A stretch of DNA of 32,383 nt from Eubacteriales Family XIII. Incertae Sedis bacterium (GTDB lineage Bacteria; Bacillota; Clostridia; Peptostreptococcales; Anaerovoracaceae): NCBI GenBank assembly GCA_031272485.1, contig JAISTV010000011.1, forward strand, positions 1 to 32,383, given 5' to 3'. The position numbers were made by a program, and so were the translations under genes. How positions within the stretch are numbered: the stretch's first letter is position 1; each line of letters starts with the position of its first letter. The notes beneath the pieces are model-generated. The model did not search any database. It saw only the letters and a program-made list of their open reading frames with translations, and had not been told where the DNA came from. Below, in pieces: positions 19,018 through 20,482 of the stretch.

Positions 19018-19046
19018 TTGAAATTCTAAAAGTAATATGTTAATAT
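19018..19046 (+). promoter_or_regulatory. Promoter of the 25-residue peptide gene
   Basis: TTGAAA (19018-19023), a 17-base spacer and TAATAT (19041-19046) give a strong-looking vegetative promoter in an AT-rich patch after miaA. Transcription would start near 19053, at the first arm of the 12-bp inverted repeat. Confidence 0.75.
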
Positions 19047-19100
19047 TTACCTACGGGTCGCTGTGTGCGGACACTTCCGGAAACGGAAAGGAGAAGCGCT

Positions 19101-19178
19101 ATGGTGACAGTAGACATAACGTTAGACGTTATTGCCTGGCTCGCTTTGGTGCTGCTTCTTAGTCACAAAAAGAAGTAG
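19101..19178 (+). CDS. 25-residue hydrophobic peptide, candidate type I toxin
   Basis: ATG at 19101 opens a 25-codon frame ending in TAG. A very good Shine-Dalgarno (AAAGGAG, seven bases before the ATG) and its own promoter argue that it is expressed. The peptide has a short N-terminus with two aspartates (Asp5, Asp9), a hydrophobic core VIAWLALVLLL (residues 10-20) and a basic tail SHKKK. Small hydrophobic peptides with lysine-rich tails are typical type I toxins of Firmicutes (TxpA, BsrG and Fst types), though the 11-residue core is shorter than a normal membrane span. A small hairpin, TTCCG-GAAA-CGGAA (19075-19088), stands directly before the Shine-Dalgarno and could affect translation. 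A convergent antisense promoter downstream supports the toxin reading. I do not recognise a specific family; alternatively it could be a harmless small membrane peptide. Confidence 0.65.
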   Translation: MVTVDITLDVIAWLALVLLLSHKKK

Positions 19179-19200
19179 TACCGCATAAGTATTGCGGTAC
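19167..19200 (-). terminator. Intrinsic terminator of the antisense RNA
   Basis: Arms GTACCGCA and TGCGGTAC (19178-19185 and 19193-19200) pair perfectly over a seven-base loop. On the minus strand the stem is followed by TACTTCTTTTT, a usable T-tract. On the plus strand the following ACTTTACG is a poorer tract, so it may act in both directions but better on the minus strand. Confidence 0.65.
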
Positions 19201-19267
19201 ACTTTACGAATACTATACACAATAGTTTCTGTGAGGTGTTCGCCGCTGACAACAGCGACCCGTCACT
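19167..19267 (-). ncRNA. Candidate antisense RNA (type I antitoxin)
   Basis: A perfect minus-strand promoter (19302-19274) would start an RNA near 19267. About 100 bases later there is an intrinsic terminator. The RNA has a short 5' hairpin (CGCTG-TTGT-CAGCG, 19257-19244) and no convincing reading frame. Its 3' part is complementary to the last codons, stop and 3' region of the peptide mRNA. This is the tail-to-tail overlap seen in TxpA/RatA and BsrG/SR4. The ends are inferred from promoter and terminator positions only. Confidence 0.6.
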
Positions 19268-19273
19268 ATTGAA

Positions 19274-19302
19274 ATTATACATACGCAGCGTATGAATGTC
19301 AA
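19274..19302 (-). promoter_or_regulatory. Consensus promoter with operator-like palindrome, antisense RNA
   Basis: TTGACA (19302-19297), exactly 17 bases and TATAAT (19279-19274) match the vegetative consensus at all twelve positions. The spacer contains the palindrome CATACGC-A-GCGTATG (19280-19294). A protein binding there would block the promoter. A further CATACGC half-site lies at 19347-19353, 26 bases before the recombinase start. Confidence 0.85.
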
Positions 19303-19378
19303 TGCGGGTTCTAACGAAATGACCTTCTGATATAGAAATGAAATGGCATACGCCCTTGTTTTTCGTTAAAATAGAGGT

Positions 19379-20482
19379 GTGAGTGAGATACGGATACACA
19401 ACAAGAGCGATAAGCCCGGGAATATTCTGCGCAAGGAAGTTCTTTTGGAGGAGCAGTGTGAGGCGCTGCAGAAGGAGCTTCCGCGGTTTCTGCGCGGGTT
19501 TTTCAGTTACCTGAAAGGGAACGTGCTGCCCATGTCGCGGCTGGCGTACCTTAGGGACATCCGGTTTTTCCTCCGCTACCTGATAGACGAGACGGATCTT
19601 ACGGACGCGAAGGAGCCTTTGGAGATAAAGAGCGCTGAGCTTGCGGCCGTCACGGCGCCGGATGTGAATCTCTTTCTGGAGTATTGCCGCAAGTACCGGA
19701 TTGAAACGGAGGCCGGCGTCCATATTTACAGTAACGACAACAAGTCATTGGCGAGGAAGCGCTCGTCTCTTTCTGTGCTGTTCAAGTACCTGTACCGGGA
19801 CGGGCTGATTGAGAAGAACATCACGGACGGGTTCGACCCGATCCGGCTGCCCAAGGCGGGCGACAAGGAAATCAAGGCGCTGCAGGACGACGAGGTCATG
19901 CTCATGCTGGACGCGGTGAGCAAGGGCGAGGGTCTTTCGCCCAAGGAGAAGCAATTCTGGCAGAAGACGCGCTACCGCGACAAGGCCATTCTGGTGCTGT
20001 TCGTCACGTACGGGCTCCGGATTTCGGAGCTGCGGGAGCTGAACCTCTCGTCGTTCAACTTCCACCGCGGCGAATTTAAGATTTACCGCAAGCGGGGCAA
20101 GGAGACCAGCATGCCGCTGAACAAGTCGGCGGTCAAGGTGCTGCGCGAGTACATAGAGCTTGAGCGGGGCGAGGGGCACGAGGAGGACGCGCTGTTCCTG
20201 TCGCTGCGCGGCACGCGCATGACGGAGCGGCAGATTCGCGAGATGGTCAAGAAGTACACAGCCATAGCGCTGGGCACGGGGCGCCGGGAGGGCTACAGCC
20301 CCCACAAGCTGCGCGCCACGACGGCCACCTCGCTCATAGAGCGCGGCAACTCCATCTACGACGTGCAGGAGCTCTTGAATCACGACAACATAACGACCAC
20401 GCAGCTTTACGCGGCGCACCGGAAGAACGCGCGGCGGGAGCTTATTCGGGACATGGAATGGGAGACGGAATTTGAGCGGTAG
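19379..20482 (+). CDS. Tyrosine recombinase of the XerC/XerD type
   Basis: The 367-residue protein has an N-terminal SAM-like core-binding domain (about 25-145) and a C-terminal catalytic domain. All active-site residues are in place: Arg214 (GLRISEL), Lys241 (KRGKETSMPL), His309 and Arg312 (HKLR), His335 (LLNHDN) and Tyr344 (TTTQLYAAH). These enzymes cut and rejoin DNA through a 3'-phosphotyrosine link. The spacing is Xer-like, and no phage or transposon genes adjoin, so a chromosomal role such as dimer resolution is plausible. An integron- or element-associated role is not excluded. The GTG start has no properly spaced Shine-Dalgarno (GAGG lies only two bases away). A TAAAAT at 19367-19372 would start transcription almost at the GTG, giving a leaderless mRNA. 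The next gene begins one base after the stop. Confidence 0.88.
   Translation: MSEIRIHNKSDKPGNILRKEVLLEEQCEALQKELPRFLRGFFSYLKGNVLPMSRLAYLRDIRFFLRYLIDETDLTDAKEPLEIKSAELAAVTAPDVNLFLEYCRKYRIETEAGVHIYSNDNKSLARKRSSLSVLFKYLYRDGLIEKNITDGFDPIRLPKAGDKEIKALQDDEVMLMLDAVSKGEGLSPKEKQFWQKTRYRDKAILVLFVTYGLRISELRELNLSSFNFHRGEFKIYRKRGKETSMPLNKSAVKVLREYIELERGEGHEEDALFLSLRGTRMTERQIREMVKKYTAIALGTGRREGYSPHKLRATTATSLIERGNSIYDVQELLNHDNITTTQLYAAHRKNARRELIRDMEWETEFER

Follow-up and report, generated by a model that had tools for sequence, protein, structure and literature searches.

The question raised by this locus is what occupies the interval between miaA and a recombinase gene in the window, the whole 32,383-nucleotide stretch of clostridial DNA analysed here. 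The first-pass annotation had read the interval as a small toxin mRNA facing an antisense RNA, and this convergent arrangement stands as the best reading now that conservation and covariance-model checks have been passed. The module is about 250 bases long and is flanked by two housekeeping genes in an uncultured gut-type member of the Clostridia, the genome bin of which is 60% complete. The neighbouring gene (19379-20482) encodes a single-copy XerS-like recombinase, possibly a chromosome-dimer resolution enzyme, whose nearest relatives among named records come from Clostridiales Family XIII MAGs, other uncultured Clostridia and [Eubacterium] infirmum; it was found in 68 of the 68 most complete family genomes sampled, usually directly 3' of miaA. 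In most relatives read the recombinase gene abuts miaA with zero gap, and the gap of ~390 bp in the window is therefore lineage-specific. The presence of a XerS-like enzyme next door might suggest that the gap holds its recombination site, either dif or an attachment site, and XerS/difSL systems are described as carrying the site linked to the gene (PMC2731167); this is nevertheless extremely unlikely, as the two genes abut in those relatives and copies of the module elsewhere do not lie beside recombinases. Two other observations belong to the surroundings of the module. An 11-nt inverted repeat (TTCTAACGAAA at 19309-19319, TTTCGTTAAAA at 19361-19371) lies outside it, immediately 5' of the recombinase gene, and the sign of the GC skew flips at about 24000 in the window, which might mark a replication terminus or a change in the coding strand.

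Both promoters that had been proposed to face each other across the interval are present (Table 1). The promoter on the minus strand is the sole 12/12 promoter in the 32-kb window. Its plus-strand counterpart is weak at 9/12, which counts against the best reading, and is not significant alone because chance yields 0.7 ± 0.9 sites this good per 1.5 kb; its hexamers are, however, conserved in relatives. When the copies are aligned by position, hexamer identity is 0.87 for the minus and 0.81 for the plus promoter, versus 0.25 and 0.28, respectively, for the spacers of 17–18 nt, i.e. random; this comparison covers recognisable promoters only and omits those with a weak or missing -35 (minus promoters of copies G535a and G535b, plus promoters of G535b and G063bc). 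The keeping of hexamers around randomised spacers argues for function, and so for both promoters being real, and argues against a transposon end.

Table 1. Position and supporting evidence of each feature of the module in the window.
Feature	Position	Strand	Evidence
Peptide-mRNA promoter, TTGAAA-17-TAATAT	19018..19046	+	9/12 sigma-70 match; six relatives 10-11/12 at this position, their spacers unrelated
Left repeat arm ACGGGTCGCTGT, predicted mRNA 5' end	19053..19064	+	perfect 12-nt inverted repeat; covaries with right arm in 8 copies
mRNA leader hairpin (shared leader motif)	19055..19077	+	95.8% of cells paired over 9 leaders; homologous to antisense leader
Shine-Dalgarno sequence AAAGGAG	19087..19093	+	direct reading; mostly conserved in relatives; paired in predicted full-length fold
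25-codon ORF of hydrophobic Lys-tailed peptide, candidate toxin, MVTVDITLDVIAWLALVLLLSHKKK	19101..19178	+	relatives up to 80% identity
Predicted antisense RNA, ~100 nt, candidate antitoxin	19167..19267	-	covariance model R1, 90.2 bits (training member)
Antisense intrinsic terminator	stem 19178..19200, U-tract 19168-19177	-	8 perfect pairs; compensatory stem changes across 10 copies
Antisense leader hairpin, motif common to mRNA leader	19233..19262	-	4 pairs changed on both sides; covariation
Right repeat arm ACAGCGACCCGT, antisense 5' end; 3' closing arm of mRNA if transcription reaches it	19252..19263	.	inverted repeat, covariation, folds
Antisense-RNA promoter, TTGACA-17-TATAAT	19274..19302 (read 19302-19274)	-	12/12; relatives 10-12/12

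The strong Shine-Dalgarno sequence and the short open reading frame that had been noted behind the plus promoter were both confirmed. The product has 25 aa, a hydrophobic core and a KKK tail, all conserved in relatives, as is typical of type I toxins that are small (<60 aa) and hydrophobic with a charged C-terminus; the core is short at about 13–16 residues, which counts against the best reading. The consensus across copies is MVTxxITxDVIALVxLVLLLxHKKK. Values of dN/dS range from 0.08 to 0.63 and are below 1 in 15 of 15 pairs, and changes are fewest at second codon positions (36, vs 98 and 141 at the others); the peptide is under purifying selection. The peptide is of the membrane type and is a putative toxin. 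None of the seven peptide members carries a PxxxG motif, and the best match to Hol_Tox (PF16935), seen in one of the seven, has an E-value of 0.24, with none of eight genomes over the cut-off. The suspicion that the peptide might form a new family has been borne out insofar as it exceeds the cut-off of no family in Pfam or NCBIfam, and the RNA likewise has no Rfam match, neither at the gathering score in the window nor, with E allowed up to 5, in six loci.

On the opposite strand, the perfect 8-bp hairpin and T-tract that the first-pass annotation saw overlapping the end of the peptide gene were recovered as the terminator of a predicted antisense RNA; its U-tract is the complement of the Lys-Lys-Lys codons and ends ~100 nt from the predicted start. 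In the leader hairpin 95.8% of cells are paired, its covariation score was reached by 0 of 500 shuffles, and slid controls scored far lower. As many of its pairs are G-U, which become A-C mismatches on the opposite strand, the fold can be assigned to the predicted minus-strand transcript. Complementarity to the putative toxin mRNA is predicted from sequence alone: a convergent conserved promoter, a structured minus-strand RNA and a terminator overlapping the end of the ORF. The antisense covariance model (R1) was built from ten copies and found two more outside its training set, at G535:C29 (E 6e-8) and G000:C29:13895-13990 (E 1.6e-7). The latter (L182 2396-2491) is an orphan antisense in the window's own genome, in which promoter, leader and terminator are kept and the toxin half is lost. 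A fortuitous grouping, in an AT-rich gap, of strings that resemble promoters and ORFs, which could be entertained since the plus promoter and the 25-codon ORF are unremarkable individually, is refuted by the homologues: conservation, covariation and the matches outside the training set leave it a vanishingly small probability.

A perfect 12-nt inverted repeat, unmentioned in the first reading, sits exactly at both predicted transcription starts, giving the two RNAs the same predicted 5' sequence; their leaders are homologous over ~40 nt and share the same hairpin, which in the mRNA leader varies by one-sided (G-U) changes only. The 5' halves of the left and right arms covary within copies, with 83 of 88 positions pairing against 72.1 expected from copy shuffling (P = 0.0003, a guide because the shuffle ignores the relatedness of the copies). 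The 3' halves of the arms show no copy-by-copy match (P = 0.45), and there is no support for pairing of the two leaders in trans (P = 0.11 and 0.25). The analysis also rejected a second leader hairpin, CUUCC...GGAAAG, in which 67% of cells are paired, no better than slid versions. The inverted repeat invites comparison with a miniature transposable element, for which the repeats would be the transposon ends and the peptide and promoters its passengers, and both the dispersal of the copies and the restriction of the module at the miaA–recombinase junction to a particular lineage would suit such an element. Its ends should be block-conserved, yet from one copy to the next no similarity is kept in the sequence that separates or surrounds the promoter hexamers; the repeats differ among copies, and the two arms of one copy agree in their 5' halves only; and the peptide is under purifying selection, leaving this origin very unlikely. 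Conserved outer ends with target-site duplications were not seen by eye in the aligned flanks.

The predicted full-length mRNA of the window copy folds with z = -6.6, and seven copies give z of -3.8 to -9.0, compared with -0.34 ± 1.18 for random window segments. In the window copy, 20 of the first 20 nt are paired to the 3' end; closure of at least 19/20 was seen in 0 of 394 random segments, and of at least 16/20 in 1.5%. Among the seven copies four reach 16–20/20 and three are weak at 7–12/20; a closure threshold of 7/20 was abandoned, as it is also attained by between a quarter and a half of random segments. The Shine-Dalgarno sequence is mostly paired in the full-length fold, in the window copy with Leu codons close to the 3' end of the ORF. 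In the predicted folds it stays paired even when the mRNA is shortened, both in the window copy and in most others, which counts against the best reading. A conserved plus-strand terminator was not found, and the plus-strand tail lacks a T-run in the copies examined. The lack of such a terminator and the weak closure of three copies likewise count against that reading. The predicted full-length mRNA has a closing interaction between its 5' and 3' ends like that of hok and aapA, conditional on the position of the mRNA 3' end, as it exists only if transcription passes 19263.

The checks proposed at the outset were a search of related genomes for the peptide, conserved and accompanied by a convergent promoter, and a covariance-model search; both were carried out, and both yielded further copies. 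The family comprises about 13 close copies in 7 genomes from 5 genera of one Family XIII-type family of Clostridia. DNA and peptide searches placed copies beyond the window's genome in G063 (two), G392 (three) and G535 (two, with a third found later), plus G421, G087 and G102, with two G063 contig ends that overlap by 104 identical nt counted as one copy. The copies occupy intergenic regions of the core genome and, according to the neighbouring ORFs, adjoin different core genes, namely uvrA, recA/cinA, yebC, miaB and a DUF2344 gene. A DUF2344-like gene is the common neighbour of copies from two genera (L151 2743-4208 and L159 1-1900), suggesting an old shared site, and in another copy (L156 ~2360-2440, G087:C78) the peptide gene is interrupted by an insertion with internal palindromes. 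The family is missing from most genomes sampled and several copies have decayed, both of which count against the best reading. Among 341 genomes of the class scanned with the covariance model, the window's own was the sole one with a match at E <=0.01, and an initial DNA search of 61 relatives gave no convincing match because carrier genomes were hardly sampled. DNA and peptide searches of phage and plasmid collections returned no match; the 3 matches of the Lys-tail pattern in viral contigs were chance ones with no surrounding module, and three further patterns gave 0.

The manner in which copies decay bears on what the peptide does. The antisense half is kept and the toxin lost or broken in six close copies (G000b, G535c, G392c, G102, G535b and G087), while the reverse is seen in one (G392b), whose genome carries two further antisense copies; this 6:1 excess of toxin-first decay (one-sided sign test, 0.06) is suggestive only. 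The peptide could instead be a non-toxic small membrane peptide, acting in signalling or stress and controlled by antisense RNA and mRNA folding, given that the toxin role is read from sequence and that the copies occupy chromosomal sites beside core genes, not mobile elements. The double lock of closing fold and antisense RNA, the multiple copies, the orphan antisense and the decay ratio fit a harmful product better, and a harmless role is accordingly considered improbable.

Beyond the close copies, weak covariance-model matches (E 0.002 to 0.56) led to at least four distant modules with other peptides, in G409, G471, G078 and G014 (loci L184, L187, L191 and L175). On reading, these follow the same plan, with facing promoters and a hydrophobic Lys-tailed ORF, or a remnant of one, ending on the terminator; in G014 no start codon with a Shine-Dalgarno sequence was seen. 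Each plan includes a 9–10-nt inverted repeat at both 5' ends, unlike that of the window in sequence, and this is independent support because the mRNA-side arm lay outside the search model. The folds of these four give z-scores from -5.3 to -8.1. Matches in G411, G518, G459 and G426 were rejected on reading, as the architecture is absent, and a further match in G111 was counted neither as module nor as reject. It is tempting, if rather doubtful, to see here a wider clostridial superfamily whose peptides are unrelated but whose toxin mRNA and antitoxin RNA start, by design, with a common folded leader; one factor (an RNase, a protein or a small molecule) could then act on both RNAs while the leader also closes the mRNA.

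Comparison of the copies establishes a selected peptide, two conserved promoters, a predicted structured minus-strand RNA, 5'-3' covariation and dispersal. The explanation that we hold with considerable confidence is that the locus belongs to a new family of type I toxin-antitoxin-like modules, carried on the chromosome in several copies and proposed to work through a lock, an opening and antisense-directed decay. The plus promoter would drive an mRNA for the 25-residue membrane-type peptide, the putative toxin; the full-length mRNA would close on itself, its first ~30 nt pairing with its own 3' region, and since the ends are closed and the Shine-Dalgarno sequence is mostly paired, it should be translationally inert. 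Trimming at the 3' end would open the mRNA by taking away its closing arm, an activation step modelled, like the inert full-length form, on hok and aapA (PMC6733600, PMC8167048). The stronger minus promoter would meanwhile supply a structured antisense RNA of ~100 nt that spans the 3' half of the mRNA as far as the stop codon, which would pair with the opened mRNA and lead to its destruction, probably by RNase III, as for txpA/RatA (PMC6563280). An undescribed family of candidate type I modules is thereby added for uncultured Clostridia, and a hok/aapA-type end-to-end mRNA lock is suggested for a Gram-positive lineage too, built via an identical 5' sequence on both RNAs. The antisense covariance model also picks up modules in cases where the 25-residue peptide, through its shortness or divergence, defeats ordinary searches.

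In txpA/RatA and bsrG/SR4 of Bacillus subtilis, a small toxin mRNA and an antisense RNA converge and overlap at their 3' ends. The first-pass annotation took these as its models, and the convergent 3' antisense upholds that likeness; they are not the sole or best analogue because the mRNA here also has a hok/AapA-like 5'-3' closing. In txpA/RatA the duplex is cleaved by RNase III (PMC6563280); the present module differs from both Bacillus systems in its closing fold and shared leader, with no member over the Hol_Tox cut-off and no Rfam match. The aapA/IsoA modules of Helicobacter pylori occur in multiple chromosomal copies, encode a hydrophobic peptide with an overlapping antisense RNA, and have an mRNA made inert by a long-distance 5'-3' interaction (PMC6733600, PMC8167048), all of which is paralleled here, the RNA features as predictions; they belong to another phylum, the searches gave no similarity to named families, and in the clostridial module both RNAs share a 5' leader via the inverted repeat. 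In hok/Sok, fold-back inhibition likewise operates between the 5' and 3' ends of the mRNA (PMC8167048), but Sok acts via the overlapping frame mok, whereas the predicted antisense here lies over the 3' end and the module is not proposed to have a second frame. The par/Fst system of pAD1 resembles the module in its convergent promoters, 5'-end repeats on both RNAs and small peptide with a charged tail (PMC7472228); however, the par repeats (DRa/DRb) are direct, making the RNAs complementary in trans, while those described here are inverted and the RNAs identical in the repeat. The par terminator is also bidirectional, in contrast to a T-tract on the minus strand only, and the peptide here is without PxxxG. 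Modules of the Clostridioides difficile CD0956.2-RCd10 type share a convergent antisense antitoxin, a hydrophobic N-terminal part and a Lys-rich C-terminus (PMC6563280), and by description their toxins are longer, at 50–53 aa (homologues 30–56 aa) against 25 aa here, and often prophage-borne. The module matches no family of the libraries searched and, by analogy, looks like a combination of the hok/aapA mRNA lock with the convergent 3' antisense of txpA/RatA.
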